Assembly: GCA_027081145.1 (NCBI GenBank)
Contig: JALWLB010000167.1
Coordinates: 1 to 32,228 of the forward strand
DNA length: 32,228 bases
Direction of reading: 5' to 3'
DNA from: Campylobacterales bacterium
Lineage (GTDB): Bacteria; Campylobacterota; Campylobacteria; Campylobacterales; QNZT01
Every line of letters starts with the position of its first letter. Position 1 is the first letter of the stretch. The position numbers and the translations under genes were made by a program. The notes below the pieces were generated by a model. The model made no database searches. It saw nothing but the letters and a program-made list of their open reading frames with translations, and was not told the origin of the DNA. Shown here piece by piece: positions 6,057 to 29,113 of this stretch.

Positions 6057-7253
6057 ATGAAAAAGATACTAATTGGTGCACTTTTGGCTTCATCTTTGCT
6101 TTATGGAGCAAAGGGAGAGAAACCTTACTCATTTGGAGCAATTTTAGGAGTTACCTCTATAAAAAATACAGGTGGCTTAGATGGATTGCATCTACAAGAA
6201 AAAACTATAGGGTTTAATTTTTTGATGAATGCATATGATAATATCAAGCCAAGATTTGATATCGAATATACCTCTTTAGATCTTAACGCTTCTCAACCTG
6301 ACTCACTTTTAAGAATCTCTTTAAATGCTATATATGAATTTTCAACCTTATACAGAATCTATCCATATCTTATAGCTGGAGCTGGATTTGAAAGAGTTGA
6401 TAATAAGACAAAAACTTTTAGTTCTCTTCCTTTTATGCAAGGTGGTGCAGGATTGAAATATAATATAAAAAACTCTATGGCAATAAATCTTGAAATGAAA
6501 GCACTTAGTGTTATTGGTGGAGATAAAGATGAAAAAAATGAAGCAATACTCACAGCTGGTCTATCGATACCATTTGGCAAAATTAAAACACCACAGCCAA
6601 AACAGAAACCTATAATCGATAGTGATGGCGATGGAGTTATGGATGAGCTTGATAAGTGTCCAGATACTCCTATTGGTATCACAGTTGATGGATCTGGTTG
6701 TCCTTTACCTGAACCAAAAGTAACAGTGATCGAAAAAAAGATAGAAGTACCTATACCTATGTCGCTTGATAATAGAGAGTGTCCAGTTAAAACAGACAAA
6801 CCTGATCGCGATCGTGATGGTGTTGAAGATAGTATAGATCAATGCCCAAATACTTTATGCGATTTTAATGTTGATAGCAAGGGTTGTCCAATAAAAGCTA
6901 TACTAAGAATACATTTTGAAACTGATAAAGCTGACATTACGCCATATTCGAGACCGTTAGTTAAAAAATTTGCAGACTTTTTGCTTAAAAACAAAGGTAG
7001 TCAAGTACTTATTACAGGTCATACAGATTGGAGAGGAAGTAACTACTATAACATGGTTTTATCTAAAAAAAGAGCTGAGAGTGTGAGAAAAGCACTAATT
7101 GAGTATGGAGTTAGCCCATCCAGACTAGAAACTGCTGGTAAAGGCGAAGAAGAGCCAATAGCTACAAATAAAACTGAAGAGGGAATGGCACAAAATAGAA
7201 GGATCGAAGTAACCTTGAGTTATCCAGGATATCAAAAAGTGGGGGAAGAGTAA
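6057..7253 (+). CDS. OmpA-family outer membrane protein (beta-barrel, TSP type-3 repeats, OmpA peptidoglycan-binding domain)
   Basis: Signal peptide, barrel region, DSDGDGVMDELDKCPDTP and DRDRDGVEDSIDQCPNT repeats, C-terminal ILRIHFETDKADITPYSRPLV...ITGHTDWRGSNYYNMVLSKKRAESVRKAL. RBS aaggag upstream. Confidence 0.94.
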   Translation: MKKILIGALLASSLLYGAKGEKPYSFGAILGVTSIKNTGGLDGLHLQEKTIGFNFLMNAYDNIKPRFDIEYTSLDLNASQPDSLLRISLNAIYEFSTLYRIYPYLIAGAGFERVDNKTKTFSSLPFMQGGAGLKYNIKNSMAINLEMKALSVIGGDKDEKNEAILTAGLSIPFGKIKTPQPKQKPIIDSDGDGVMDELDKCPDTPIGITVDGSGCPLPEPKVTVIEKKIEVPIPMSLDNRECPVKTDKPDRDRDGVEDSIDQCPNTLCDFNVDSKGCPIKAILRIHFETDKADITPYSRPLVKKFADFLLKNKGSQVLITGHTDWRGSNYYNMVLSKKRAESVRKALIEYGVSPSRLETAGKGEEEPIATNKTEEGMAQNRRIEVTLSYPGYQKVGEE

Positions 7254-8782
7254 TGAAAATAAAACTCAAGAGAGTATTAATATCAACAGCGACAAGTATC
7301 TATCTACTATCTTTTAGTGGATGTCTTGATGATAGAGCATTTTTAGGCACTCGTACAAATATAGCCGAAACTGGAATAGATACTGGAATAGATAGTGATG
7401 GAGATGGATTGAGCAACAAACAAGAAGAGAAACTTGGCACTAATCCAAATAACTCTGATAGTGATGGTGATGGAGTAAATGATGGAGTTGAAGTTGGAAT
7501 TAATGATGATGGAAGTTACAAGATAGATAATCCTGCAAATACAAATCATGATGATAGTCCAGATGTAATCGATGCTCTTGATCCAAAAAATGACTCTGAT
7601 AATGATGGATTGACAAATGCAGAGGAAAAGAAGTATGGAACTAAGCCTCTAGAAGCTGATAGTGATAGTGATGGTTTGCTTGATGGAGAAGAAGTTAATA
7701 TTTTAAACACAAATCCTATAAACAAAGATAGTGATAACGATGGTGTTGAGGATGGAATAGAGGTTGGATTTGATGGAGAGGGAGAGAATAAAGTATATCA
7801 TGTAAACAATCCTGCAAATACAAATCATGATGATGATCCAGATCTAATCGATGCTCTTGACCCTTTGAATGATAGTGATGGAGATAAAAGACCAAATCTT
7901 TACGAAATCGACTCTCAGAAAAGAAAAGATGCAGGCTATTTGGTTGATTTTAATGAAACTACAGATCCTTTGGATGAGAGTGATTATTATCCATGGATAA
8001 CTGAGGTTGAACCTGGTAAAACTATGATTGATAATGGTTTTGTTTATATTCCTGGTGGTTTTGATGTGGATGATGATGGAGATGATGAGAGTGGTTTTTG
8101 GATGGCTCAGTATGAGGCTAGAGCTAATGGTGCAACAACCATAACGATTGATAATTTGAGTAATTTTATTAAAGAAAACTTTATCTCTATAAATACTACT
8201 GATATATTGGTTTACAAAAGTAGTGCTCCTGGTCTTTCTGGAGAACCTTTATACACTCCTATTTATAGCCAAAATGGCACTGAGGCTATGACAGGCATGT
8301 ATGGATATGAAGCTGCTGCACTAATAGCTCAAAATCAAATAGATAGAGGCTTAAAAACTACTCTTCCTTCAAATAAACAATACTCTCATGTAGTAGCTAT
8401 ATTAAATAATAATAATGAGGTACAAAATAGCTATGATGTAAATGTACCAGCTAGTTATAAAGGAGAAATATTTGAGATTGATAGCGGTATTTTAGAATTT
8501 ACAAAAAACTTAGTAAAACTTAGTGATTTTGATGAGCAAAACCCTCCAAGCTGGTGGAGAGTAGAAAAAGTATTTTATAATGATAGCGATAAAGCTGCCG
8601 CTAGTACAAATACTTTAATAAATGAAGACTCTGGTGCGGGTAAAGAGCAAGATCCTTTTGCTGTGATTTTAGAAGGGGATAAAGACTCATCTGGAAAGTT
8701 TATGGTTGATTTAACTTATGGAGTAACTTTTGGTGAAAAAGGAAAAATCGGCTTTAGGGCTGCGAGTGATTATTTAAAATAG
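7253..8782 (+). CDS. TSP type-3 repeat lipoprotein with C-terminal formylglycine-generating-enzyme/C-type-lectin-like domain
   Basis: Lipobox LLSFSGC, many DSDGDG/DSDNDG repeats, then GFVYIPGGF...ESGFWMAQYEA...LPSNKQYSHV...KIGFRAA, resembling the FGE-sulfatase/CLec pattern. Starts inside the ompA stop (TAATG). Confidence 0.75.
   Translation: MKIKLKRVLISTATSIYLLSFSGCLDDRAFLGTRTNIAETGIDTGIDSDGDGLSNKQEEKLGTNPNNSDSDGDGVNDGVEVGINDDGSYKIDNPANTNHDDSPDVIDALDPKNDSDNDGLTNAEEKKYGTKPLEADSDSDGLLDGEEVNILNTNPINKDSDNDGVEDGIEVGFDGEGENKVYHVNNPANTNHDDDPDLIDALDPLNDSDGDKRPNLYEIDSQKRKDAGYLVDFNETTDPLDESDYYPWITEVEPGKTMIDNGFVYIPGGFDVDDDGDDESGFWMAQYEARANGATTITIDNLSNFIKENFISINTTDILVYKSSAPGLSGEPLYTPIYSQNGTEAMTGMYGYEAAALIAQNQIDRGLKTTLPSNKQYSHVVAILNNNNEVQNSYDVNVPASYKGEIFEIDSGILEFTKNLVKLSDFDEQNPPSWWRVEKVFYNDSDKAAASTNTLINEDSGAGKEQDPFAVILEGDKDSSGKFMVDLTYGVTFGEKGKIGFRAASDYLK
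7529..7863 (+). repeat. Internal direct repeat, period 279 bp (93 codons)
   Basis: 7529-7584 and 7808-7863 match at about 52 of 56 positions (aatcctgcaaatacaaatcatgatga...ccagat.taatcgatgctcttga.cc). Confidence 0.8.
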
Positions 8783-12061: not shown

Positions 12062-13549
12062 TTAGTATCCACTTATAGTAACATAGTTTGTAATGATTTC
12101 TAATAGTGGTCCAGCAAAGAAGATTGTAAAAATTGTAGCTGCTGCCGAAAAACCGATAATTGTTTTTAATGAAGTTGACAAATTTTTTACATATCTTGTA
12201 GAATCATTTGTTTTTGGATCTTTTAAGAACATATAAACTACAAGTTTTAGATAATAGTAAACTGCAATAGCACTATTAAGAGCCATAATAACAGCCAATA
12301 CAATATAATCAGCATTTATGGCAGCACTCATCAGATACATCTTGCCCCAAAATAGAGAAAATGGAGGAACACCTGCAAGTGAAAACATAAATATCCCCAT
12401 CAAAACAGCACCAACTGGCAATATATTGACCATACCTGCAAACTTCTCATATGGGTGATCAAATCTATCATCAAATTTGTTTGTTTTGTGTCTTGATATC
12501 CAAAGCATTGTAAATGCTCCTAAGTTTGCAAACAAAAACAGTACCCAATAAAAGAAAAGTCCACTGTTTGCTTGAGTTGTACCTATAAGTATCGCCGCCA
12601 TAACAAAACCAGCATGAGAGATTGAACTATATGCGAGCATTCTTTTAACATCTTTTTGGACTAGTGCCATCAAATTTGTAATAGTCATAGTCAGCACAAC
12701 AATAACCCACAACACTGCCTCAATCCAAACAATATCTGCATTTGTCAAAAATTCAAAAAGCCTCATAGCAACTACAAAAGCTGCAATTTTTGGAACAACT
12801 GACATATACCCAGCAAGTGCCGCACTAGCACCTTCATAAACATCAGGAACCCATGTTTGAAAAGGCACCATTGATAGTTTAAATCCAAATGCGGCTAACA
12901 TAAATACGACTGCAAATAGTATCCCTCCAATTGGCTCATACTCATTTGCAGCTAAAACTTCTGCTATTTTATTGATTTCAACATTACCAGTAAGAGCATA
13001 AAGTATCAAAGCACCAAATGCATAAAGTCCAGCTGCCAATGCTCCCATCGTAAAATATTTTATCGCAGCTTCAAAACTTCTTGGTCTATTGTGCATAGCT
13101 ATAAGCGTATAGAGTGCTAAACTAGCAGTTTCAAGCCCTATAAAAATTAAAATTAAATTATCTGTTGCTACCATAAATTGAAATCCAGCTATCATAAATA
13201 AAAATAGTGCAAAAAATTCTGGATATGAAAATTCATGAAATCTTTTTGAAGTAAGAGCCAAAGGAATAAACAAAGCAGAAGAGAGTAGTATAACAATTTG
13301 AGCTAAAATGGATATTCCATCCATAAGCATCACATCAAAAAATCCTCTCTCTGCACTATTATACCCAAAAGTAGCACCTAAACTTAATAAAATAAACAGT
13401 AAACTAAGTGAAACATAAAGCGTTTTTGACAAGTTTTTTACCGCTAAGTCCAATATAATAATCACCAACGCCCCTACTACTATAATAGACATAGGAACAA
13501 GTGAAAGCAGGTTTAATGACTCTAAACTGACTGAAATTGGCTCTAACAT
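12062..13549 (-). CDS. nuoN: NADH-quinone oxidoreductase subunit N
   Basis: 14-TM antiporter-like subunit ([31 protein letters not shown]), operon position. Confidence 0.95.
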
Positions 13550-15075
13550 TATTTATGCTCCTTTATGCTATTTGCACTCTCTAGCAAATTTTTTGCATCT
13601 TTTGTTATAGATTTATCATGCATTTGAATTATCATATTTTTTACACTAGTATCAATTGGATCAAGAACAGGTTTTGGATAGACTCCCAAATAGACAACCA
13701 ATAAAACTAAAGGTACAAATGCAGTTATCTCTCTTGCATTTAAATCTGGCAGATTTCTGTTCTTTTCATTTGTTATTTCACCAAAAAATGATTTTTTATA
13801 AAGTCTTAACATATAAACAGCCCCCAAAATAATACCAGTTCCTGCAAGTGCTGTCATAATAGGAGAGATGGCATAAAAGCCTAAAAGGGCTAAAAATTCA
13901 CCTACAAAACCTATCGTTAAAGGAAGTCCGACTGACGCCATAAGCATTATTCCATAAACTGTGGCAAAACGAGGCATAGATGAGGCAAGTCCACCAAATT
14001 CACTCATCATTTTTGTGTGTCTTCTATCATATATCACACCAACTAACATAAATAGTGCACCACTAACTATACCATGACTTAACATTAAAAATATTGCACC
14101 TACAATTCCTTCAGCATTCATAGCAAATGTTCCAATTATAATTATTCCCATATGGGAGATAGAGCTATATGCAACAACTTGTTTCATATCCTCTTGAACA
14201 TAGGCTATCATAGCGGTATATATAACCATTATGATCGAAAGTATTGCAATTGGAGTGATAAAATAGACCGATGCATCAGGAAACATTGGAAGTGAAAATC
14301 TAACAAAACCGTAAGTTCCCATTTTTAATAAAATTGCCGCAAGTATGACAGAACCAACAGTTGGTGCTTGTCCATGAGCATAAGGTAGCCATGTGTGAAA
14401 TGGAAACATAGGCACTTTGATAGCAAACCCTAAGAAAAATGCTCCAAACAACCAAAGCTGCAAATCAAATGGAACAACCAAAGAGTGCCAATCTGGAATT
14501 GAAAAACTCCAAACTCCTGTCGCTTCGTGGTATAAAAATGCCATATACAATATACCAACTAGCATAATTAATGATCCAGCAAATGTATAGAGAAAAAACT
14601 TAATAGCAGCATATATTCGTCTCTCTGCTCCCCAAGCTCCAACTATATAAAGCATTGGAATTAATGAAAGCTCCCAAAATATATAAAATAAAATAACATC
14701 TAAAGAGACAAAAACACCAACCATTGTCATCTCTAAAAATAGTATAGAGATGATAAGATTTTTAAAGTTTTTATGAGGCCCTAGTCCAATAACCGCAATC
14801 ATAGTCATAAATGTACTTAAAACAACCAAAAATAGTGCTATTCCATCAACCCCAAGAAAATAGTTTATTCCAAAATCTTGAATAATAGGAACATTCTCTA
14901 TAAATTGAAATCCAGGATTTGTTGCATCAAAACTCATCCATAAAAATAGAGATATGAAAAATTCAATCACTACAATTGTTATTCCGTAAGCTTTGATGCT
15001 TTTGCTATCAACCAAAAAGCCAAAAACTGCGGCAACTGCAGGAAAAAATACCAATAATGTCAATAATGAATCCAT
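13549..15075 (-). CDS. nuoM: NADH-quinone oxidoreductase subunit M
   Basis: [50 protein letters not shown]. Confidence 0.97.
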
Positions 15076-15086
15076 TCATACACTCC

Positions 15087-16964
15087 TTAAGAACTCGGTA
15101 TATTAGGTAGTGCCAGTAATAATAACACAACCAAACCTATAACCATCCATCTAAGATTTTTAGATAGATTACCACTTTGCATCACTCGTGATTTATCACC
15201 ACTTGTATATATCATTCCAGCTATCATATCAACCGTAGCATCTACTATTTTCAAATCAATCTCTTTCCATGCAACTTGAGAAAGTCTTTCATATGGTTTA
15301 CAAATATAATTCTCATAAAATTGTGGTATAAAGTATTGATTTTTCAAAATTGAGTAAAGCTTTGTACCTCTTATATTGATATTTATAAGCTGATCAAATA
15401 TTTTAGTTTTAATAGGCAAATATCTAAAAACCGCAAATGCTATTCCACTAAGTGCTATACCAAGAGTGATAAATATCAAAATATAGATTGTTGGTGACTC
15501 TACATGAGGAGAGTATGCAGGTAAAACCTGAGTTACATAGTCTATAAAAGAGTGTTCAAAAAATCCTGAAATTACTGCCAAAATAGCAAGAGGCAACATT
15601 GCATAAAGCATATATGGATATGCTTCATGTGGATGATAACCATATTTTTCATATCTTTTTTCACCAAAGAAAACAAGCATTACAAGTCTAAAACTATAAA
15701 ATGCTGTTAGCCCTGCTCCAACCCAAAGCATTCCCCAAAGTATATAAGAGTGTTCACTAAATGCCACCTCTAAAATTTTATCTTTTGAGAAAAATCCAGC
15801 CAATGGCCAAATACCAGCAAGTGCAAGTGAAGCTATACTCATAATAATCATAGTCCATTTCATGCTTTTGCCAAGTCCACCCATTTTTTGAATATTAAGC
15901 TCATCATTCATAGCATGCATCACATTTCCAGCTCCTAAAAATAGAACCGATTTAAAAAATGCATGGGTCATAAGATGAAAAAGTGCTATCCAATAAGCTC
16001 CAAGACCGGCTGCTACAAACATATATCCAAGTTGCGACAAGGTTGAATAAGCAATAATTCTTTTAAGATCGTTATTAACTAGTGCCATTGATGCAGCAAA
16101 TATTGCAACAAATGCTCCAAGACAAGCTATAAAATAGCCAACATCAGGAATTAAAGCAAACACTTCATTTGCTCTAATAACTAAATAAACTCCAGCTGTA
16201 ACCATTGTAGCAGCATGAATTAGTGCTGAAACTGGAGTTGGTCCTTCCATCGCATCAGCCAACCAAGTATGTAGTGGAAATTGGGCTGATTTACCCATAG
16301 CACCAATAAATAGTAAAATACCTATTAGTGTTACTGTAAATATATCAACATTTACAATCTCTTTAAATACAATATCATAATTTAATGACCCGATATTCCA
16401 ATAAATTAAAAAGATTCCAATTAACATACCAAGATCAGCAATTCTATTCATAATAAATGCTTCATTGGCTGACCATGCGGCTATCTCTTTATGATACCAA
16501 TGTCCAATCAACAACCATGAACAAAGCCCAACTCCTTCCCATCCTATAAATAGTCCCAAAAAGTTATCACTCATTACAAGAACCATCATGGAAAATACGA
16601 ATGCAGAGAGATAAGAGAAGTATCTATTAAACCCTTTATCATGATCCATATAGCCTATGGAGTAAATATGAACTAGTGTAGAAACGGTTGTCACAACTAC
16701 CATCATAATAACCGAAACTTGATCTGCAATAAATCCAAAATCAAGATCAAAATTACCAGCAGCTATCCAATCCATCATCGTAACATGAACAACTGTTTTT
16801 CCATCTACATAAAATAGTAATACCATAGATGCAACCCATGATACAAAAAGTAATCCAGAAGTTACTATGCCTGTAATGATATTTTTTGGTCTATCTCCAA
16901 AAAAAGCTGCAAATAAAGATCCTACAAGTGGAGCAAAGAGTGCAATATATAAATATTTTTCCAT
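15087..16964 (-). CDS. nuoL: NADH-quinone oxidoreductase subunit L
   Basis: GWEGVGLCSWLLIGHW, FPLHTWLADAMEGPTPVSALIHAATMVTAGVYL. Confidence 0.98.
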   Translation of the reverse strand: MEKYLYIALFAPLVGSLFAAFFGDRPKNIITGIVTSGLLFVSWVASMVLLFYVDGKTVVHVTMMDWIAAGNFDLDFGFIADQVSVIMMVVVTTVSTLVHIYSIGYMDHDKGFNRYFSYLSAFVFSMMVLVMSDNFLGLFIGWEGVGLCSWLLIGHWYHKEIAAWSANEAFIMNRIADLGMLIGIFLIYWNIGSLNYDIVFKEIVNVDIFTVTLIGILLFIGAMGKSAQFPLHTWLADAMEGPTPVSALIHAATMVTAGVYLVIRANEVFALIPDVGYFIACLGAFVAIFAASMALVNNDLKRIIAYSTLSQLGYMFVAAGLGAYWIALFHLMTHAFFKSVLFLGAGNVMHAMNDELNIQKMGGLGKSMKWTMIIMSIASLALAGIWPLAGFFSKDKILEVAFSEHSYILWGMLWVGAGLTAFYSFRLVMLVFFGEKRYEKYGYHPHEAYPYMLYAMLPLAILAVISGFFEHSFIDYVTQVLPAYSPHVESPTIYILIFITLGIALSGIAFAVFRYLPIKTKIFDQLININIRGTKLYSILKNQYFIPQFYENYICKPYERLSQVAWKEIDLKIVDATVDMIAGMIYTSGDKSRVMQSGNLSKNLRWMVIGLVVLLLLALPNIPSS

Positions 16965-16966
16965 TA

Positions 16967-17269
16967 CTAACCTTTCATGCTTTGTAAGCTATCAAGATCA
17001 ATTGTACCTGATCTTTTGTACCATAAAACCAACAATCCAAGCCCAACTGCCACTTCACTTGCAGCAACCGCAATTATAAAAAATGCAAACAGTTGACCAG
17101 TAACATCTGCATAAAATTTAGATACTGCTGCAAACCCTATATTAACCGAGTTCAATAGTATCTCTGTTGAGAAAAAAAGCATTAAAAGGTTTTTTCTTCT
17201 TATAACACCCACTAAACCTATACTAAAAAGTATCGCAGAAATTACTAAATAGTGTGTAAGTGTAATCAT
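16967..17269 (-). CDS. nuoK: NADH-quinone oxidoreductase subunit K
   Basis: 100-aa, 3-TM protein with MLFFSTEILLNSVNIGF and AASEVAVGLGLLVLWY. Confidence 0.97.
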   Translation of the reverse strand: MITLTHYLVISAILFSIGLVGVIRRKNLLMLFFSTEILLNSVNIGFAAVSKFYADVTGQLFAFFIIAVAASEVAVGLGLLVLWYKRSGTIDLDSLQSMKG

Positions 17270-17838
17270 TTTATATCCTTATTATCATTATCAAACTCTT
17301 CTTTATCAATTTTTGCATCCAAAGTCAAACTAACATCCATCTTTTTGCTAACTAAAATAATTCCAGCTATCATAGCCACCAACAACATAACAGCGGCCAA
17401 CTCAAAAGGTACTAAATATTTTGTAAATAGTACAATACCTATATTTTGTGGATTATTTGCCCCTTCAATTAATGGAGCAGCAAGTTGTAGGTTTTCGGTT
17501 GCAAAAATAGGAGCAGAAATGATAACAACAATTAAAACTGCACTTAATATTGCAAGAGTATATATAATTTTTTTATTTCTAATATCCTCTTTAACATCTT
17601 TTGTTGTATCAAAAAACATCATACCAAAAGCATACAGTGCCATTACTGCACCTGTATAAACTATAATTTGAACAACTCCTAAAAAATCAGCATCCAACAA
17701 AAAGAAAAAACCGGCTATAAAAATCATACCAGCTGCTAATGCACTCATAGCATAGAGTGCATTTTTACTTAAAACTACTATCAAAAACATTCCTACCGTC
17801 AAAGCCGAAAAAAGATAAAAAGCTACAATTTCATACAT
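17266..17838 (-). CDS. nuoJ: NADH-quinone oxidoreductase subunit J
   Basis: DADFLGVVQIIVYTGAVMALYAFGMMFFD; 4-bp overlap with nuoK. Confidence 0.96.
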   Translation of the reverse strand: MYEIVAFYLFSALTVGMFLIVVLSKNALYAMSALAAGMIFIAGFFFLLDADFLGVVQIIVYTGAVMALYAFGMMFFDTTKDVKEDIRNKKIIYTLAILSAVLIVVIISAPIFATENLQLAAPLIEGANNPQNIGIVLFTKYLVPFELAAVMLLVAMIAGIILVSKKMDVSLTLDAKIDKEEFDNDNKDIK

Positions 17839-17847
17839 GATAAACCT

Positions 17848-18462
17848 TTAATACGCTAGAGGTGTTTTTTTAACAAAATTTTCTGCATCATCTCTGAGTG
17901 CACCAAAACCAGGAAATGGCTTCTGTTTTTTTGCTCTAAAAATATCCATAGGTGTTACCAAATCAGCCATAGTTGCAAAGTGTGCTCTTTGTTCACTAAC
18001 ATTTTCATAATCTTGTCCATGCACAATTGCAAGTTCTGGACAAACTTCTGCACAATAGCCACAGTATATACACCTTCCTAAATTGATGGTATAATCTTTT
18101 ACTACTTTTCTACCTTTTTTACCATACGCCGCTTCTATTCGAATGCAGTTTGCTACACAAATTTTCTCACAAAGCCCACACCCTATACAAGCTTGATTTC
18201 CACTCTCAAGCAACCTATTGATTTTGTGAAGTGCTCTATATCTTGGACTAATAGGAATTTTCTCAAGTGGATATTTGATTGTATGTATATTAAATCTTAT
18301 CATCTCTCTCAAAACTATCCAAAGCCCTACAAAAAGCTCACCTTTAAAGGTTCTCTTGACTACTCTTAAAAATGCACTTTGCCAAGTCGTAGGAGCTGGA
18401 TCAACCTCAACATACCTATAATCATCACTCACATCTCTATTATTATAATTTTTCAAATCCAT
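17848..18462 (-). CDS. nuoI: NADH-quinone oxidoreductase subunit I (2x[4Fe-4S])
   Basis: CIGCGLCEKICVANCIRIE and CIYCGYCAEVCPELAI. Confidence 0.96.
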   Translation of the reverse strand: MDLKNYNNRDVSDDYRYVEVDPAPTTWQSAFLRVVKRTFKGELFVGLWIVLREMIRFNIHTIKYPLEKIPISPRYRALHKINRLLESGNQACIGCGLCEKICVANCIRIEAAYGKKGRKVVKDYTINLGRCIYCGYCAEVCPELAIVHGQDYENVSEQRAHFATMADLVTPMDIFRAKKQKPFPGFGALRDDAENFVKKTPLAY

Positions 18463-18471
18463 ATCTTATCC

Positions 18472-19467
18472 TTAAATTAATACTAAACCGGTTATTAGTA
18501 TATTGATCAAAGCTACAGGCATTAACACTTTCCAGCAAAACCACATCAACTGATCTGGTCTTACATGTGGCCAAGCGGCTCTAACCCAAAAAAACAAAAA
18601 TATCAAAAAAGATACTTTTAACAAAATCATAATACCACCTGGAATAATCCAAAAAGAATTAAACCCACCCAAAAATATAATACTAGCTAAAAATGCAATT
18701 GTAAACATATTTGCATACTCACCAATTGCAAAAAGACCCCATCTTATACCAGAGTATTCTGTTGCAAAACCTGTTATAACTTCTGCTTCATGCTCTAATA
18801 GATCAAATGGAGTTCTATTTGTTTCTGCATATCCAGCTATTAAAAACATTAAAAATGCAACCGGTTGATACCAAATCATCCAATCAAATAGACCACCAGT
18901 TTGATAATTATTAATATCTATCAATGATAAAGAGCCTATCATCATCAAAGGAGCAATCAAAGAGAGTCCAGTAATTACCTCAAATGATAAAAGTTGAATT
19001 ACAGTTCTAGCAGCCCCTAAGAGTGACCATTTATTGCTTGAAGCCATCCCCCCAAATAAAGGAGCATACATACCAGTTGCCATAACTCCTAAAACAAACA
19101 AAACTCCAACATTTACATCAGAAATTATAGGACGAACAACATAATCAGTAAATGGAATTTTAAATTCAGGAAAAAATGGAATAGCTGCCATAGCTATAAA
19201 TGCAGTCGCAGCCGCAACAACAGGAGCTAGTTTAAAAATAGGTTTGATAGCATTTTGAGGAACTATATCCTCTTTTGTAAATAGCTTTATACCATCAGCT
19301 GCAACTTGCAAAATTCCAAATGGACCAACATGAGTTGGACCTAGTCTTCTTTGCATAAAAGCCAAAACCTTTCTTTCAAAATAGGTTGCAATTCCAGCCA
19401 AAGCTGAAAACACTAAAAGGATTACAACTATTTTGACAAGTACATCAATTACAAAAATACTATCCAT
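18472..19467 (-). CDS. nuoH: NADH-quinone oxidoreductase subunit H
   Basis: YFERKVLAFMQRRLGPTHVGPFGILQVAADGIKLFTKEDI, AETNRTPFDLLEHEAEVITGFATEYSG. Confidence 0.98.
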   Translation of the reverse strand: MDSIFVIDVLVKIVVILLVFSALAGIATYFERKVLAFMQRRLGPTHVGPFGILQVAADGIKLFTKEDIVPQNAIKPIFKLAPVVAAATAFIAMAAIPFFPEFKIPFTDYVVRPIISDVNVGVLFVLGVMATGMYAPLFGGMASSNKWSLLGAARTVIQLLSFEVITGLSLIAPLMMIGSLSLIDINNYQTGGLFDWMIWYQPVAFLMFLIAGYAETNRTPFDLLEHEAEVITGFATEYSGIRWGLFAIGEYANMFTIAFLASIIFLGGFNSFWIIPGGIMILLKVSFLIFLFFWVRAAWPHVRPDQLMWFCWKVLMPVALINILITGLVLI

Positions 19468-21748
19468 TTTTTACACCTTTGTTTATATTTATTTTAGCAA
19501 ATCTATAACCTGTTTGAAATATTTTATCGGTATCTATTTTTGCATCAAATGTTGGAAGATATGCAATCTTCCCACCAAGTTGTTTATCGAGCTTCACTTT
19601 TAATTCTATCACATTTTCTATAGATACTAGATCACCATCTTTTAAATCATAAGATTGTAAAAACTCATTTGAGACATATAGTGCACCATCTTCTTTTAAC
19701 TGATGAGCTTTATTTGTAAAAAAATTAAATTGATTTATAGGGTTTGATCTATAGATAGCATCTTTTGGATCAATTTTTTTAGGCTTTTTTACAAAATCAA
19801 TTTCATCAGTTGATTTTACACTCTTTTGTTTAAGCAAATATCCTCTTATCTCATTTGCTCCATTATCAAAAAAGTTTGGTAAAAGATCAAACTCTAGTGG
19901 CTCAAAACCTCTGTTTTTTGGTAATTGAGGTGTATAGTCTATTGTATATTTAGTTTTTAAACCTAACTCATTTGCTATATCATTTAAAATATATCCATTA
20001 TAAGATAGAGCTGCATTTGTAGGAACTACCCTTTTATCTATATTTGTAAAAGTTCCCTCTTGTTGATTTAGTGCTGGTATATCAAGATCACCATCACCCA
20101 AAGCACTAAGTGTAAAATCACCTTTTTCGTTATAACCAACTACACTTTTACCCTCTTTTTCATCCAAATCACATATCAAACTAACTCCAAGTGTATTTGT
20201 TTGTGAAGGAATTATAACTACACTAAAATCTGTATATTTTTCTATAAGACCTACCAGTTTTGCAATATTTTCAGATCTTTCATGTGTATATAAATCCTCA
20301 CCCACAATTAGAGAAAATCTATCCTTTTTGGCTAACATTTTTGTCATCTTCTCTTCAAAATCTTCAGGAAGTCCTATAATACTTCTATCAAACTCTGGCA
20401 GTTTTATATCTACACCTTCTTTTATAAAATAATTAAGAATAAATGCCAAAATATGCTCTTCAGATCCTATATCTGGCGATATTGTTAAAATATTTTTTGA
20501 AAATTTTTCTACCACTGTATCTATCAGTGGATGAAAATAGATCCCTGCTCCTTTATTCATACTAAGAGCATTATTCATAGCATATCCAGTTACAGGATTA
20601 TCATACCTTAAGTGAGTTCCAACAGATATGATAAAGTTTGACTCTCTTATAGTTTTTAAACTTCCACTATATAGTGATTTTCCAGATGTTTTTGAAAAAT
20701 TTTTCAAAAACTTTTGATAAGCAAGTGCATCTTTATTAATCAGTTTTAAGTTATATTTCTCTTTTAATTTTTGAAGAATTAAAGCCTCTTCATTTGTAAT
20801 ATATGAATTAAATTTAATAGTATCTGCTCTATTTTTTATAAAATCGACCGCTTTTTCAAAACTTTGTCTATCTTTTTCTTTGACTCTATTTTCAAAATCG
20901 TATCCAAATCTTACTGCACCACTTATAGGAGAGTAGTGAGGTTCATTTGTAACTCTATAGATAGAGTCATTTTTTACTTCATAATATATAAGTGAACAAT
21001 CACTACTATGTGGATTGGCAGCTGGAATTTTTTTAAGTTCCCACACATTCGCACGATATTGAAAATCTGTACTAACTAATGCTCCAACTGGACAAACCGC
21101 TATACACTCTCCACAATCTTGACACTCTAAGCTATTATCTTCATTAATGGTGCCAATGATAGATTTTTGCAATTTATTCCACATAGCATATGAATCTTTT
21201 GGCATCGAAGCTTTAAGCTCTTTATTTAGTGGCTCTCCTCCTCTTGGTACAGTTTTTAATACACTATCACCAATGCTATCTTTACAAACTGTTACACACT
21301 TTTCACAAACTATACACAAGGCTGCATCATATTTTAATACTCCCCAATCTCGTATAGGTCTTTTTGTATCAGCAATAGCAAACTTTTGTTCATTAACTTT
21401 TTCATAAAGAGTATAATTTTGTAATTCACACTCTCCACTTTGATCACAAACTCCACACTGTAATGGATGATTAACATTATAAACTTGCATGATAGCTTTT
21501 CTCTCGTTTGCTATCTCTTCACTATCTGTTGTAATTTGCATACCATCTTTTGCTTTAGCATTACATGCATATACTCGCTTGTTATCTGCATCAACTATAC
21601 AGAGCCTACAAGCTAGAGTAGGTGAACACCCTGTAAGATAACAAATAGCAGGTATAAATATATCTTCTCGTCTTGCAATATTGAGAATAAACTCACCCTC
21701 TTTAGCTTTGCACTGTTTTCCATTTATACTTATTGTTATATCACTCAT
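19460..21748 (-). CDS. nuoG: NuoG-like subunit, second tandem copy (N7-type cysteines lost)
   Basis: [2Fe-2S] (CYLTGCSPTLACRLC), HPLQCGVCDQSGEC, CIVCEKCVTVC, CQDCGECIAVCPVGAL. N7 region reads ANPHSSDCSLIYY...SPISGAVRFGYDF. Confidence 0.92.
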   Translation of the reverse strand: MSDITISINGKQCKAKEGEFILNIARREDIFIPAICYLTGCSPTLACRLCIVDADNKRVYACNAKAKDGMQITTDSEEIANERKAIMQVYNVNHPLQCGVCDQSGECELQNYTLYEKVNEQKFAIADTKRPIRDWGVLKYDAALCIVCEKCVTVCKDSIGDSVLKTVPRGGEPLNKELKASMPKDSYAMWNKLQKSIIGTINEDNSLECQDCGECIAVCPVGALVSTDFQYRANVWELKKIPAANPHSSDCSLIYYEVKNDSIYRVTNEPHYSPISGAVRFGYDFENRVKEKDRQSFEKAVDFIKNRADTIKFNSYITNEEALILQKLKEKYNLKLINKDALAYQKFLKNFSKTSGKSLYSGSLKTIRESNFIISVGTHLRYDNPVTGYAMNNALSMNKGAGIYFHPLIDTVVEKFSKNILTISPDIGSEEHILAFILNYFIKEGVDIKLPEFDRSIIGLPEDFEEKMTKMLAKKDRFSLIVGEDLYTHERSENIAKLVGLIEKYTDFSVVIIPSQTNTLGVSLICDLDEKEGKSVVGYNEKGDFTLSALGDGDLDIPALNQQEGTFTNIDKRVVPTNAALSYNGYILNDIANELGLKTKYTIDYTPQLPKNRGFEPLEFDLLPNFFDNGANEIRGYLLKQKSVKSTDEIDFVKKPKKIDPKDAIYRSNPINQFNFFTNKAHQLKEDGALYVSNEFLQSYDLKDGDLVSIENVIELKVKLDKQLGGKIAYLPTFDAKIDTDKIFQTGYRFAKININKGVKNG

Positions 21749-23961
21749 TGGCTTACCTGTGTAATTTTTACTTTATTAAATCTATATATAGAGTTTAACT
21801 TTTCACTTTTGATACCCATATCAAATGTAGGCATCAAGGCTGCTGTACCTTTTAGAGTTTCATCTACATGATAGATTGTCTCTATCTCAAAATCACCAAA
21901 AGAGATTTTTATCTTATCTTTATCATTAATTTTTGCTGCTATTGAAAACTGTTTTGACCCTATAAGAGCACTCTTGGTTTTTAATATTTTAGATGAATTT
22001 GTAGCATAATTAAATTGTAAAACCGGCTCACATAGATAAATAAGTGTCCCATCATAACTATCTAACTCTTCTATTTCATCTATATTATCTTTTGTTTTAA
22101 CTTTTTTTACTTTTAGCTTATAACCTCTATTTAAAGCACCATTTTCTAAAGAGTCAAAATCTATATCCAAATAACCGCTTTTTTTAGGTAACTCTTTTGT
22201 GTAGTCAATTGTATATTTTCCATCAACTCCTAACTGTACTGCAATATCATGTAGGCAAAACCCATCAAAATGTGCTGCTACATTTATAGGAACTACCTCT
22301 TTATCGATATTACTAAAAGTTCCCTCTTGTTGATTTAATGCTGGAATATTTACATCACCTTCACCACTTGAGCTTATTATAAAATCACCCAAAGCGTTAT
22401 AACCTATAGACTTTTTACCCTCTTTTTCATCCAAATCACATATTAAAGCAACTCCTAAAGAGTTGGTTTGAGGAGGAATAAGTGTAACTTCAAAATTACA
22501 CTCTCTTTCCAAAAGTCCTAAAATTTTTGCGATATTTTCAGCTCTTGGATGAGTATATAAGTCTCGACCAACAATAAAAGAGAGTTTTTTTCTATGATTG
22601 AGACTAGATTTAAACCTCTCTATCTCCTCTTCGCCGATATTGCTCTCAGCACTTATATACCCTTCATCCAAATCATCAAAAAAACTTTTTACCTCATCTG
22701 ATAACCCTTTTTTATCTTCAAGTAAACTTTTTACCAAAATTGCCAATACACCCTCTTCTGTTCCTGCTTCATATTTGAGAAATTGTGTTACAACATTTTT
22801 TAATAAATCATCCTCTATTGGGTGTAAATAGACAACTTCTCCTCCAAATTTTTGATATGAGGTAGTTATCATGTATCGTACCATTGGATTATCAGTTGAT
22901 ACTCTTGTTCCAAAAACGGCTATAAAATCACTCTCTTTGATACCTTCTAAACTTCCACTATATAATGATCTACCAGAAGTTGATGAAAAAGATTGTAAAA
23001 ATTTTTGATAAAGCAATGCATCACTGTTTATAAGCTTATATCCAAATTTTTCTTTTAATTGTTGTAATATTTTTGCCTCTTCATTTGTAATATATGAGCT
23101 AAATTTAATAGTATCTGCACTTTTAAAAGCCTCTATACACTTTTGTAAATCATCTTGATTGTTGCCTTTTGTATTTGCAAAATCGTATCCAAATCGTCCA
23201 GCTCCACATAGAGTGTTGATCTCAAACTCATTTTTTACTCTAAAGAGTGAGTTATTTTTAACATCATAATATATATGACAAGCACTACTACAGTGAGCAC
23301 ACGCAGATGGAATACTTTGTAATTCCCACACATTTGCACGATATTTAAAATTTGTACTTGTTAAAGCACCAACTGGGCAGACTGCTATACACTCTCCACA
23401 AAATGTACAATCAAGCACATCACTACCTTTTGGTATAATGCTTGAGTTGTATCCACCTACTTTAATCTCTATAGCATCATCACCTATAACTTCATTACAC
23501 ACATGAACACATCTTTCACAAAGGATGCAAAGACTCTCTTCATATTTTATCAAACCCCAATCGGCAAGTACTCTTTTTTGATCTTTTGTAGCAAATGTTT
23601 GTTGATTAATACCAAATTCCGTAGTCTTATTTTGCAATTCACACTCACCACTCTTATCGCAAACTCCACACTCTAATGGGTGATTTACATTATAAAGCTT
23701 CATAATATTTTGTCGATGTTTATAAAGCTCATCCGATTTTGTAGTTATATTTAATCCATCAACTACTCTCTCTTGACAACTTAAAACAAAATCATCAATA
23801 CCTTCTACTTCAACTACACACAACCTACAAGAGCCAATAGGCCTAATCTTGCTTATATAACACATAGTAGGTATATAGATATTCTCTCGTCTTGCAACTT
23901 CTAAAATGGTTTCATTTTCTATAGCTTTGATTTTTTTGCCATCTATTGTAATCTCTATCAT
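21745..23961 (-). CDS. nuoG: NuoG subunit, first tandem copy (full Fe-S complement including N7-type)
   Basis: ORF track begins at 23997 (GTG), but ATG 23961 (MIEITIDGKK) overlaps the upstream stop as ATGA. CYISKIRPIGSCRLC, HPLECGVCDKSGEC, CILCERCVHVC, CTFCGECIAVCPVGAL, CAHCSSACHIYY...LCGAGRFGYDF. Confidence 0.93.
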   Translation of the reverse strand: MIEITIDGKKIKAIENETILEVARRENIYIPTMCYISKIRPIGSCRLCVVEVEGIDDFVLSCQERVVDGLNITTKSDELYKHRQNIMKLYNVNHPLECGVCDKSGECELQNKTTEFGINQQTFATKDQKRVLADWGLIKYEESLCILCERCVHVCNEVIGDDAIEIKVGGYNSSIIPKGSDVLDCTFCGECIAVCPVGALTSTNFKYRANVWELQSIPSACAHCSSACHIYYDVKNNSLFRVKNEFEINTLCGAGRFGYDFANTKGNNQDDLQKCIEAFKSADTIKFSSYITNEEAKILQQLKEKFGYKLINSDALLYQKFLQSFSSTSGRSLYSGSLEGIKESDFIAVFGTRVSTDNPMVRYMITTSYQKFGGEVVYLHPIEDDLLKNVVTQFLKYEAGTEEGVLAILVKSLLEDKKGLSDEVKSFFDDLDEGYISAESNIGEEEIERFKSSLNHRKKLSFIVGRDLYTHPRAENIAKILGLLERECNFEVTLIPPQTNSLGVALICDLDEKEGKKSIGYNALGDFIISSSGEGDVNIPALNQQEGTFSNIDKEVVPINVAAHFDGFCLHDIAVQLGVDGKYTIDYTKELPKKSGYLDIDFDSLENGALNRGYKLKVKKVKTKDNIDEIEELDSYDGTLIYLCEPVLQFNYATNSSKILKTKSALIGSKQFSIAAKINDKDKIKISFGDFEIETIYHVDETLKGTAALMPTFDMGIKSEKLNSIYRFNKVKITQVSQ

Positions 23962-25955
23962 ACTGCCACCATCGCCATATAATAGCACTTCATACACCTA
24001 CTAGCTTCTAAAAGTGCTTGCTCTTTCGTAAAACCTAAATTTACCTCTTGATCATTTTTTATTCTATAATCTGCTGGTAACTTTTCACTAACTTCTCTTT
24101 TTAACCCCTTTACCCAACCTACAACTTTTTTATCTTTATCATATACTTTAAGAGCACTTAGATGATCTTCCATAATCTCTTCATCACTTAGAGTAATTTC
24201 ACCACTTTGTACATATCTTGATATAACTGAAGCTGCTCTTTTTGCTTGATCAACAGCATTTACTATAGTCATAGGTCCATACTCACAATCACCTGCAGCA
24301 AAAACTCCTTTTCTGCTTGTCATGTAGGTTTTGCCATCGGTTTTTATAGTTTTCCAACTTGTCTTTTCTATCTCCCACTCTTCAGGCAAAAAACTCAAAT
24401 CTGCATCTTGAGAAACAGCAGGAATAAGATAGTCACACGGAATATTAAAATCTGCTCCCTCTATTTTTACAAGCTGTGCTCTTCCACCATTTGGATCAGG
24501 AACCAATTCAAATTTATTTACTTTTAAATCAACCAACACATCATCTTTATCTATAATATCTGAAATGGCAGTATGAAATATAAATTCAACTCCCTCCTCA
24601 ACAGCTTCATGATACTCTTCATAGCTTGTATTTTTTATGATTGTTTTTTCATCTCTTCTATAGAGCATAATAACCTTTTTAGCTCCTGCTCTAATAGAAC
24701 ATCTAACAACATCCATAGAGGTATAACCACCACCAACACACACTACAGTTTTGCCAGTTAAATCAACCTTTTCACCAATTCCCCATTTGTTATATAAATT
24801 AACTTGATCTAAAAATGCAATTGCTGGCCAATAGCCTTTAATTTCTGGTCGTTCATTATTAGCTCTTACTTTTTTTGATACGCGTGTACCAGTAGCAATC
24901 AATATAGCATCATACTCCTTTTCAAAACGCCTAAGCATATTGGCTGTTACTCTTGTATTTAATATAAAATTGACTCCAAGATTTTTTATAGCCTCTATAT
25001 CTTTATAATATTTTTCATATGGCATTCTAAATTCAGGAACACCCACTGCAACTTCACCACCAATTACAGGCAATTCATCATAAACATCACAATCAATTCC
25101 CTCTAACGAAAGATAGTACGCTCCAGTCAAACCTGCAGGTCCTGCTCCAACTATTGCAACTTTTTTACCAATTTTCTCTTTCTGTTTTTTTGGATATACA
25201 AAATCATATCCATGATCACTTTCATAATCAGCACCCAACCTTTTTAATTCCATAATAGAGATAGGCTCATCTAAATTACCTCTCAAACATGCACTTTCAC
25301 AAGGATGAGGACAAACTCTTCCACAAGTATGGGCTAAAGGCATAGTCTGCTTGGTAGCTTTTAAACTATCTAAAAATCTTAAATCCCTCACACCCTCTAT
25401 ATAAGCTGGTATATCTACATGATCTGGACATGCATCAATACAAGGAGCAGTAACTTTGGAAATATAAGAGATATTATCATCATAATAGTGTGGAGAATGC
25501 TTTTTATTGTCTATTAAATCATACACTTCATCTGAAAAATGGTTTAAAATACTCAAAAGTGGAACTGGTACCGTTTTACCAATTTCACATTTACTGGTTT
25601 TAATCATACTCTCACATATCTCTTTTAAGTGATCAACATCACTTCTCTCGCCCTCACCTCTAGCAATTTTTTCAAACATATCTTGTAAAATTTTTCCACC
25701 CCATCTACCAGGAGTACATCTTCCACAAGCTTCAGAGTACTCTTGATAAAGTGCAGCATATTCACAAGCTAATTTAATAACATCAACATCTTTATCAAAA
25801 ATCGCAAGTCCATCCCAACCTATAAAAGCTTTAGAATTTTTTTCATCACTATAGTGATATGGGAGTTTTAATTGTGTATCTTGCCATTCACTTATATCTT
25901 TAGATCTATTATCGATTAGCTCATCTTTCCAATCTAAAAAGAGAACTTTACTCAA
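23958..25955 (-). CDS. NuoF C-terminal domain fused to a GltD-type FAD/NAD(P) oxidoreductase
   Basis: N-terminal YSEACGRCTPGRWGG...SKCEIGKTVPVPLLSILNHF (NuoF N3 domain). Then CIDACPDHVDIPAYIEG...CGRVCPHPCESACLRG, GAGPAGLTGAYYL, CVGGGYTSMDVVRCSIRAGAKKVIMLYRRDE (GltD-like). TTG start at 25955 follows aaggag and overlaps the upstream TGA (TTGA). Confidence 0.9.
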   Translation of the reverse strand: MSKVLFLDWKDELIDNRSKDISEWQDTQLKLPYHYSDEKNSKAFIGWDGLAIFDKDVDVIKLACEYAALYQEYSEACGRCTPGRWGGKILQDMFEKIARGEGERSDVDHLKEICESMIKTSKCEIGKTVPVPLLSILNHFSDEVYDLIDNKKHSPHYYDDNISYISKVTAPCIDACPDHVDIPAYIEGVRDLRFLDSLKATKQTMPLAHTCGRVCPHPCESACLRGNLDEPISIMELKRLGADYESDHGYDFVYPKKQKEKIGKKVAIVGAGPAGLTGAYYLSLEGIDCDVYDELPVIGGEVAVGVPEFRMPYEKYYKDIEAIKNLGVNFILNTRVTANMLRRFEKEYDAILIATGTRVSKKVRANNERPEIKGYWPAIAFLDQVNLYNKWGIGEKVDLTGKTVVCVGGGYTSMDVVRCSIRAGAKKVIMLYRRDEKTIIKNTSYEEYHEAVEEGVEFIFHTAISDIIDKDDVLVDLKVNKFELVPDPNGGRAQLVKIEGADFNIPCDYLIPAVSQDADLSFLPEEWEIEKTSWKTIKTDGKTYMTSRKGVFAAGDCEYGPMTIVNAVDQAKRAASVISRYVQSGEITLSDEEIMEDHLSALKVYDKDKKVVGWVKGLKREVSEKLPADYRIKNDQEVNLGFTKEQALLEASRCMKCYYMAMVAV

Positions 25956-26185
25956 TCTGCTCTCCTTTTTACAACAATTGTCCAATCAACTTCATTAAAT
26001 TTTACAGAGTTTATAAGCTCATGTCCATTCTCTTTTATAATATCTGCACTTTTTTGAACAGAAGAAAAGTCTCCAATTTCAAATAAAAAAATTGCCACAC
26101 CCAAAGGAGCTGTCTCTTTTTCTAAAATCTCTAACATTCGATCATAAAACTTATCTTTTAGTTTTCTTAAATCATATCTTAGCAC
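25952..26185 (-). CDS. 77-aa protein in the NuoE position (epsilonproteobacterial NuoE-replacement type)
   Basis: MLRYDLRKLKDKFYDRMLEIL...; too short for NuoE and lacks its [2Fe-2S] cysteines. Positional analogue of C. jejuni Cj1575c and H. pylori HP1264. Confidence 0.8.
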   Translation of the reverse strand: MLRYDLRKLKDKFYDRMLEILEKETAPLGVAIFLFEIGDFSSVQKSADIIKENGHELINSVKFNEVDWTIVVKRRAD

Positions 26186-26194
26186 ATCTGCTCC

Positions 26195-27427
26195 TTATCT
26201 ATCTATCTCACCAAAAACAATGTTTAAATTACCAATAATAGTAACAACATCCGCCAAATATGTACCAACCAACATCTCTTGCAAGACACTTGTGTGCCAA
26301 AAACTAGGAGCTCTTATTTTTAATCTATATGGATATGGATCACCTTGTGAATTTATATAAAAACCAAGCTCTCCTTTTGGAGACTCTGTTGCTACATAAA
26401 CTTCTCCAACAGGAGGTCTCATACCTTGAGTTACCAATACAAAATGCTGCATCAATGCAAAATTTTCTGTCATAAGTTGCTCTTTTGGAGCTGAAATATA
26501 TTCAGGAACATTTGCAACTATTTCGGGAGAGCTCTCTTTATACATAGGAATTAACTGTCTTAAAATTTTTGCACTCTCTCTCATCTCTTGCATATATAGT
26601 TTATATCTACCATAACTATCACAAGAGTCAGTCACAGGAACATCAAAATCAAGCTCATCATATATACTATATGGCTCCTCTTTTCTTATATCCCAAGCAA
26701 CGCCACTTCCTCTAAGAGTTGGACCACTACATCCCCAATTAAGTGCATCTTCTTTGCTTAACATACCAACTTGTTCAAGCCTCATAAGCCAAATTCTATT
26801 TTTATCCAAAAGTCCTTCATAATCAGCAATATTTTCAGGAAGTTTGTCTATAAACTTTTCTAAATCTTCAAGCCATCCTTTTGGTAAATCTAGTGGCACT
26901 CCACCTATTCTAATAGATGAGTGAGTTAGTCTTGCTCCGCAATAATCTTCCATAAGATCCATTGCAAATTCTCTCTCTCTAAAGCAGTACAAAAATATAC
27001 TCATAGCACCAACATCAAGTGCATGAGTTGCAAGCCAAAATAGATGAGATATAATTCTATTTAATTCAAGTAGCATAACTCTAATAATTTCGGCTCTTCT
27101 TGGAATCTTGTCTTCAATTCCTAAAAGTCTCTCAACTGCAAGAGCAAAACCATAATTATTTGAACTAGCTGCAATATAATCCATTCTATCTGTAGTTGGC
27201 AAAAACTCATTATAGATCATGTTTTCAGCCATCTTCTCAATACCTCGATGTAAATATCCAACATCAGGCACAGCTTTTACAACCTGTTCACCATCAAGCT
27301 CAAGAATCAATCTTAACTGCCCATGAGCAGATGGGTGTTGAGGACCAAAATTTACAATCATGCGATTGTCATCTTTTTCAAAAACAAGGTTTTCATAAAA
27401 TGGTTTTAATCTATTTGGAGTTTGCAT
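26195..27427 (-). CDS. nuoD: NADH-quinone oxidoreductase subunit D
   Basis: [39 protein letters not shown]-terminal GEIDR. Confidence 0.98.
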
Positions 27428-27431
27428 ATTG

Positions 27432-28232
27432 TTATTTCCTTGAATTTAACTCTTTTGAGTTCTCTTTTTTAAACTTACTTATCAAAGGTACACCACCATC
27501 TTCTTGGTAATTTCCAAAATCTGTTGGTTTACCTGAGTATTTTTCACCATATGGTACCTCATGTTTAACTCTTGCAAAATTTTTAGTATCTTTTATATTT
27601 ATTGTTGCTGAGTCTCTCATCTCTGGACCTATAATATCACGATACTCTTTTCCAAAAATCTTATCAACTTCATACCATTTAGCTGCTTCATCACCTTCAA
27701 GCGGATATGATTTTAACAGTGGATAACCAACCCAATCTTCAGGCATCAAAAGTCTTTTTAGATATGTATGATTGTTAGCAACTATACCAAACATATCAAA
27801 CATTTCTCGCTCAGCCCAATCAGCACTTTTAAAAATATGCATAATAGAATCAATTGCTTGATCTTGAGATATCATGTACTTGACTCTTAATCTTTTTCTT
27901 TTCGACATAGATAACAGTTGATAAAAAATTTCAAATTGATTTGATTTAGCTAAAAAATCTGTTGCACTAAGTTCGGATAAAAAATCATACTCAAGCTCTT
28001 GCTTTAGAGATAACATAACTTTGCAAATATCTTTTGGCTCTATAATCACAACCAATTGATCTAACTCTATATATGAATCCTTAATCTTTACAAGTGATTT
28101 TAAGTGCTTTAAATCGTTTGCAAAAATCTCATCTGTTGATACATCTTTTCTTGGAACTGGAGGGGCTTTAAAAAATCTATCACTATAATAGGCTTTTTTT
28201 TGCAAATTTTTTCTATCTTGATACGCTCTCAT
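27432..28232 (-). CDS. nuoC: NADH-quinone oxidoreductase subunit C
   Basis: [38 protein letters not shown]. Confidence 0.96.
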
Positions 28233-28742
28233 CTATACCAACCTTTTTGGTTTTAATTTTTGAAATGCACTCTCTCTTCTTATCTGTTTTTGAAGCATCA
28301 TAACCGCATATTGTAAAGTCTCTGGTCTTGGTGCACAACCTGGTAAATAGATATCAACAGGAATTACTCTATCAACTCCTTGTACTGTTGCATAAGTGTT
28401 AAACATACCACCAGTATTAGCACAACTTCCCATACTTATAACCCATTTTGGCTCAGTCATTTGATCATACAATCTTTTTATAAATTCAGCATGTTTTTTT
28501 GTTAAGGTTCCAGCCACAACCATAAGATCAGCTTGTCTAGGACTAGCTCTAAATATAGTTCCAAATCTATCAAAATCGTATCTACTAGCACCTGATGCCA
28601 TCATTTCAATAGCACAACAAGCCAATCCATAGGTCAATGCCCACAATGAGTTACTTCTACCCCATTGAACAAGCTTATCAACTGTAGTAAGTGCAACAGG
28701 TAAACCTGCATCTTGAAGATAATTTACTTTATGCTGTGCCAT
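28233..28742 (-). CDS. nuoB: NADH-quinone oxidoreductase subunit B
   Basis: Likely start ATG 28742 (MAQHKVNY) after aaggagcactaga. [35 protein letters not shown]. Confidence 0.96.
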
Positions 28743-29113
28743 TCTAGTGCTCCTTTTTTCCATGCATATATAAATCCAATAGCCAACAATAATATAAATA
28801 TTAACATCTCTGCAAATCCAAACCAACCAAGTATTTTAAAATTAATAGCCCATGGAAACATAAATATAATCTCCACATCAAATAGTATAAATAAAAGTGC
28901 AAAGAGATAAAATTGGGCAGAAATGGTATTTGGCTGTTTTGAAACCTCAGGACCACATTCATAAATAGAAAGCTTTAATTTTTCATTATCAAGTCTAGCC
29001 AATTTTCTACTTATAAATCTAGCTATTATAGTAGTAGCAATAAACGCTACAAAAGTGATAATAAGAAGCAAAAACGCTCCAAAATAAGGGTGAGCAACAT
29101 CCATATGACTCAT
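28724..29113 (-). CDS. nuoA: NADH-quinone oxidoreductase subunit A
   Basis: [39 protein letters not shown]. Confidence 0.97.

Follow-up and report, generated by a model that had tools for sequence, protein, structure and literature searches.

A NuoF-GltD fusion flavoprotein at the NuoEF position of a Campylobacterota complex I operon, and a candidate origin for the Helicobacter/Campylobacter-type enzyme

In known forms of complex I, NuoG receives its electrons from NuoF by way of the N3 domain. A 2019 review gives nuoXY in place of nuoEF for the Campylobacterota as a group, with flavodoxin or ferredoxin as the likely donor, and records canonical nuoEF in Arcobacter butzleri (PMC6682613). In Sulfurospirillum, a proteome study describes two forms of complex I, one of epsilon type and one standard (PMC4585668). 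Among transhydrogenases, StnC oxidises NADPH and feeds a chain of clusters. Its flavin adenine dinucleotide (FAD) is held to be non-bifurcating, and its Lys170 (K170) is a ligand of the FAD-proximal cluster; replacement of this residue by Ala or Cys collapsed activity, and half of it survived replacement by Arg (PMC10482914). Here we describe a 32,228-nucleotide contig of a Campylobacterales bacterium (JALWLB010000167.1, assembly GCA_027081145.1; hereafter the window), in whose nuo operon the C-terminal domain of NuoF is joined to a GltD-like flavoprotein in a single protein (the fusion). Vent and redoxcline ecology has yet to explain how sulfur- and hydrogen-oxidising Campylobacterota draw low-potential reductant from menaquinol; the operon is a concrete candidate for an answer, a complex I with an NADPH-transhydrogenase-type nucleotide module rather than NuoEF.

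The reading that we favour, and hold to be reasonably probable, is that the window encodes a reversible NAD(P)H (probably NADPH):menaquinone complex I with the fusion as its nucleotide-side end subunit. The fusion matches three Pfam families above cut-off, namely NADH_4Fe-4S (PF10589, E 3.5e-21), Fer4_20 (PF14691, 1.7e-23) and Pyr_redox_2 (PF07992, 4.4e-25). Its parts are as follows, with residues counted from the TTG at 25955, which gives a protein of 665 amino acids (aa):

25524..25760, minus strand: NuoF C-terminal N3 domain (PF10589), with C77 GRC80 TPG83 ... KC123
25212..25451, minus strand: GltD-type Fe-S domain (PF14691), with C172, C176, C211, C215, C219, C223 and K238
24243..25166, minus strand: two-Rossmann FAD/NAD(P) domain (PF07992), with GAGPAG, GGGYTSMD, YRR and GDCEYG
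23985..24002, minus strand: C-terminal SRCMKC (C654, C657), an RCxxC that is N-terminal in NfnL/GltD and here stands at the C-terminus

The Pfam search found neither Complex1_51K nor SLBB in the fusion. Its NuoF similarity is confined to NuoF positions ~292-407 of 410, and the NCBIfam NuoF models align over their last ~115 positions only. The best similarities are to the GltD-like families PRK12771 and PRK12814; all listed matches lie under the curated cut-offs, and no listed model claims the protein. Fer4_20 together with a two-Rossmann FAD/NAD(P) domain with intact glycine motifs places it in the GltD/NfnL superfamily. Chance similarity is excluded by E-values of 1e-21 to 1e-110 and by full-length orthologs, 54-77% identical, in several family-level groups. 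An open reading frame (ORF) lister gives an in-frame TTG upstream at 25985, for 675 aa; the start common to the orthologs is the TTG at 25955. The original prediction for this locus, made from the sequence alone, had described a 665-aa protein in which the Fe-S tail of NuoF, without its flavin mononucleotide (FMN)/NADH-binding and SLBB portions, is joined to a GltD-like module, and it is borne out in each of these respects.

The loss of the canonical input subunits extends to the whole genome. PF01512, the FMN/NADH domain Complex1_51K, has no match anywhere in its 184 contigs (listed as 100% complete), on which ground a separate intact nuoEF elsewhere was rejected; PF10589 occurs once, in the fusion. 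The 77-aa ORF between nuoD and the fusion belongs to a named family, PF16514 (E 2.6e-36). It contains no cysteine and is not a canonical NuoE, the thioredoxin-like [2Fe-2S] subunit that carries N1a; we call it NuoE'. Its relative in H. pylori, HP1264, reportedly binds FMN. That relationship was detected with E 2.4e-25 (PDB 2lxr). The absence of canonical NuoE and NuoF had also been predicted, and nothing that the prediction had named as fatal to it was encountered: the FMN domain is absent, there is no separate nuoEF, and the FAD/NAD(P) motifs are intact.

In an alignment of 46 sequences, the FAD/NAD(P) motifs GAGPAG, GGGxTSMD, YRR and GD are essentially invariant. As ligand to the FAD-proximal cluster, NfnB uses Glu and StnC uses Lys170. 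The fusion has K238 aligned with this Lys, and K238 is invariant in the aligned orthologs. Likewise, the CxxC that opens the Fe-S domain of NfnL/GltD is found at the C-terminus of the fusion, as it is in StnC and in NfnA of NfnABC. The invariant Lys and the permuted CxxC make the GltD half one of Stn/NfnABC type, which argues for a non-bifurcating, NADPH-type flavin. By sequence and by fold, NfnABC and StnABC are its nearest solved relatives; they ranked first in a Foldseek search with a single-chain AlphaFold model built from an alignment of 46 orthologs, in which the N3 helix bundle and the Rossmann domains are good. This ranking supports the fold of the GltD half and not the cluster geometry, because the predicted local distance difference test (pLDDT) score is low in the Fe-S domain and C-terminus. 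YRR is common to NADPH-using relatives. Of the N3 ligands, Cys77, Cys80 and Cys123 do not vary across orthologs. The third ligand, Cys in the CxxCxPC of canonical NuoF, is Gly83 in 75 of 75 aligned orthologs, and Gly is kept in three more distant members too. Because of this invariant Gly, the N3 of the fusion may bind its cluster through an unusual fourth ligand, may leave one iron site open, may hold a three-iron cluster or may have no cluster left.

The operon around the fusion holds a complete complex I gene set:

29113 to 12062, minus strand: nuo operon, in the order A-B-C-D-E'-fusion-G1-G2-H-I-J-K-L-M-N
27432..29113, minus strand: nuoC, nuoB and nuoA
26195..27427, minus strand: nuoD
25952..26185, minus strand: NuoE' (NuoX), 77 aa, PF16514, without cysteine, relative of H. 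pylori HP1264 (PDB 2lxr)
23958..25955, minus strand: NuoF-N3::GltD fusion subunit, 665 aa, its TTG start overlapping the NuoE' stop
21745..23961, minus strand: NuoG1, with a full Fe-S set and an extra ferredoxin-type [4Fe-4S] site, in ATGA overlap with the fusion stop
19460..21748, minus strand: NuoG2, with the extra [4Fe-4S] site but without the N7 cysteines in this copy
12062..19467, minus strand: nuoN, M, L, K, J, I and H, the remainder of the operon

Stops and starts overlap by four bases at three junctions (TTGA for NuoE'/fusion, ATGA for fusion/NuoG1 and for NuoG1/NuoG2). NuoD is single-copy in the genome, and with nuoA-D and nuoH-N in one operon the core and membrane part of complex I is present. 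NuoG1 and NuoG2 are both complete genes. Each carries N1b, N5 and an eight-cysteine, ferredoxin-type pair of sites, the eight cysteines being invariant in NuoG2 and present in most NuoG1; at this place, only the N4 set is seen in two canonical NuoGs from the phylum. The extra cluster persists in lineages without the fusion. In NuoG2 of the window, the four N7-type cysteines are lost; they are kept in 33 of 45 aligned sequences.

A survey of genomes for the fusion, proposed as a check in the original prediction, covered 150 Campylobacterota genomes at least 90% complete. The full fusion is encoded in 33, all of which also carry PF16514, and a further 86 have PF16514 without it. PF01512 was found in 18 genomes, only 4 of them with the fusion (G007, G060, G117 and G134, in open frames of 468-548 aa). 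One GTDB-wide scan, with patterns taken from the window's fusion sequence alone and thus of limited reach beyond the phylum, gave 49 loci; those with a named lineage are all Campylobacterota, among them Sulfurimonas, Nitratiruptor, Sulfuricurvum and Thiovulum. At every scanned locus whose contig extends that far, the fusion stands between NuoE' and NuoG1, and a second NuoG follows NuoG1 in all fusion loci long enough to show it. ATP-citrate lyase (PF16114) is present in 29 of the 33 fusion genomes and in 8 of the 117 others (Fisher p 1.5e-19, shared ancestry uncorrected), 6 of those 8 coming from one family (f5). The association suggests reverse electron transport in autotrophs.

From these sequence data we infer that the fusion assembles into complex I. 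Its GltD-module FAD would exchange a hydride with NAD(P)H, and most likely with NADPH. This flavin is predicted not to bifurcate, and electrons would pass from it one at a time through the two GltD-domain [4Fe-4S] clusters to the NuoF-derived N3 domain, and onward through NuoG1/NuoG2, NuoI and NuoB to menaquinone, coupled to proton pumping. The path would be reversible, and in autotrophs its main direction may be the reverse one, with NADPH formed at the expense of proton-motive force and menaquinol. This reading is supported by the constant position of the fusion between nuoD and nuoG, by the four-base overlaps in the window and by the ATP-citrate lyase distribution.

Several observations weigh on the other side. 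N3 has only three of its four cysteines in every ortholog, so its relay may not be intact. In the AlphaFold model, pLDDT is <50 exactly in the GltD Fe-S domain and the C-terminus, and cluster distances cannot be read from it. YRR is no proof of NADPH over NADH. Searches of the window's genome found no match for ATP-citrate lyase, nor for RuBisCO as an alternative route of carbon fixation, and this genome thus gives no evidence of reverse flow for that purpose.

An alternative, which we regard as possible though unlikely, is a ferredoxin/flavodoxin:menaquinone complex I as in C. jejuni, with entry at the extra [4Fe-4S] site of NuoG1/NuoG2 and the fusion as a docked ferredoxin:NADP reductase that exchanges NADPH and ferredoxin. 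The eight-cysteine dicluster of both NuoGs, against one cluster in the two canonical NuoGs, fits this proposal, as do the two POR/OOR-type genes of the window's genome and the flavodoxin use reported for the related C. jejuni complex (PMC6682613). However, the N3 domain of the fusion faces NuoG, the chain contains no ferredoxin domain, and the extra cluster also occurs in fusion-less lineages, so the fusion must add something else. If there is exchange with ferredoxin or flavodoxin at all, it is likelier to take place at the extra NuoG site than at the fusion. One may also speculate, with similarly low confidence, about one machine in which the GltD flavin serves NADPH and the extra NuoG clusters serve ferredoxin, both linked to menaquinone, with tandem NuoG1-NuoG2 as the wire, the three-cysteine N3 as a switch and reverse electron transport in autotrophs.

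Bifurcation or confurcation by the module is more doubtful still; in that case electrons would be split among NADPH, ferredoxin and the quinone path, by the flavin or by the PF16514 subunit, and three redox pools would be coupled. The GltD fold does bifurcate in NfnAB, the N3 domain of the fusion is most similar to HydB/NfnB of bifurcating enzymes, the conserved R310 aligns with NfnB R201/StnC R239, and a bifurcating complex I (Nuo-Bfu) has been proposed in other organisms (PMC9304861), but K238 in place of the NfnB Glu ligand is the StnC-type, non-bifurcating signature, and the FMN domain and thioredoxin-like subunit that serve bifurcation in Stn/Hyd are absent. Finally, although GltD-like proteins are frequent and others occur in the window's genome, an ordinary soluble GltD-like oxidoreductase, in the operon by chance and outside complex I, is very improbable given the NuoF N3 domain, an operon position conserved across family-level groups with overlaps on both sides, and the joint absence of the fusion and the Fe-S half of NuoG1.

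This joint absence was seen in the examined operons that have NuoE' without the fusion, and is as expected if, as in the NADPH-linked complex proposed above, the two form one electron path. Between NuoE' and NuoG, such operons have an ORF that goes by the name of NuoF or NuoY and aligns with NuoG1 residues ~349-750 (examples in Helicobacter- and Sulfurospirillum-like operons are L091 1701-2720 and L098 1688-2560). Over a 15-protein set, NuoY matched the NuoG1 profile with E 1e-15 to 8e-60, far above NuoG2, and the fusion was not matched. In NCBIfam the match is to NuoG (7.5e-18 for one protein and 0.0012 for the other), and Pfam gave no NuoF family match for NuoY proteins. Since the profiles and NCBIfam place NuoY with NuoG, and best with NuoG1, descent from a degraded NuoF or a degraded fusion was rejected. 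The 'NuoF/NuoY' of Helicobacter/Campylobacter-type operons is a C-terminal remnant of NuoG1, and its name NuoF is probably wrong.

A tree of NuoGs separates NuoG1 and NuoG2 into two groups except for one row (L121), which from its gene order is probably a mislabelled NuoG2. Operons of Campylobacter/Helicobacter/Sulfurospirillum type have a single NuoG, which groups with NuoG2 (lineage labels assigned by inference; L091-type proteins match HP1264-like neighbours). The Helicobacter/Campylobacter-type complexes are most simply explained by deletion of the fusion together with the Fe-S half of NuoG1, and the H. pylori/C. jejuni-type complex I looks like a loss derivative of the fusion form. In a tree of the other nuo genes, at least four state changes are needed, and one NuoY (L115) nests with the NuoG1 of its own family; on these two grounds the loss probably happened more than once. 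The number of changes alone cannot separate gain from loss, and loss is preferred because the NuoG1 stump remains. The trees were quick, with support from the Shimodaira-Hasegawa-like approximate likelihood ratio test (SH-aLRT) only and some long branches. Because the stump persists beside NuoG2, NuoG1 and NuoG2 probably work in one complex. The original prediction had suggested that the GltD-like flavoprotein may restore NAD(P)H coupling or exchange electrons with ferredoxin/flavodoxin. The data speak neither for nor against the second suggestion. NAD(P)H coupling itself is its best-supported part, as the GltD half groups with the NADPH-using StnC/NfnABC; 'restore' is probably backwards, because it is the H. 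pylori/C. jejuni form, with a NuoG1 remnant for its 'NuoF', that looks derived by loss.

Elsewhere in the window, an ORF rich in CxxCH motifs (159-1211, plus strand) probably encodes a multihaem cytochrome c. Two ORFs (1716-3393, minus strand), one for a Sir2-like NAD-dependent deacetylase and the other resembling the histone-deacetylase family, overlap by a few bases as judged by eye; they are of unrelated types and look co-transcribed. An OmpA-like protein is followed by one with Asp-rich, calcium-binding (thrombospondin type 3-like) repeats (6057-8782, plus strand).

No description of the fusion was found in the literature searched, a search without the two most relevant subscription papers. 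Within that literature, the distribution of the fusion, the invariant Gly in N3, the Stn/NfnABC-type GltD half, NuoY as a NuoG1 remnant and the link to ATP-citrate lyase are newly described. With canonical NuoEFG the module shares the N3-domain fold and NuoG subunits; it differs in having no FMN/NADH domain, no NuoE thioredoxin fold, an N3 with three of four cysteines, and two NuoGs with an extra [4Fe-4S] site. NfnAB/GltD (the glutamate synthase small subunit) share the FAD/NAD(P) domains and Fe-S N-domain with the fusion, but have RCxxC at the N-terminus and a Glu ligand, whereas the fusion has RCxxC at the C-terminus and a Lys. The StnABC/NfnABC transhydrogenases (PDB 8oh5, 9bov, 9n5u) share the GltD module with C-terminal CxxC and the Lys at the K170 position, and likewise couple it to NuoF/NuoG-type clusters. 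They are soluble, with GltD fused to NuoG and an FMN-bearing StnB that bifurcates, whereas in the window GltD sits on the NuoF tail within a full membrane complex I operon; by Pfam the fusion chain has no NuoG-like domain, and NuoG1 is a separate gene. Nuo-Bfu, the BfuABC-fed complex I (PMC9304861), also has an alternative module at the NuoEFG position of its operon, but retains an FMN-bearing BfuB, of which the window's genome has none. The epsilon-type complex I of C. jejuni/H. pylori, with nuoX/nuoY for nuoEF, shares PF16514 NuoE' and the order A-D, E', ..., G2, H-N. It is without the fusion and the Fe-S half of NuoG1, and has a short NuoY ORF between NuoE' and a single NuoG where the window has a full-length fusion and NuoG1. 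Chemosynthetic relatives of Campylobacter and Helicobacter thus appear to have given up the usual entry point of complex I for a fused flavoprotein, whose probable partner in electron exchange is NADPH, and the simplified version of the pathogens looks like its truncated remnant, left by module loss with a NuoG1 stump that came to be called NuoF or NuoY.

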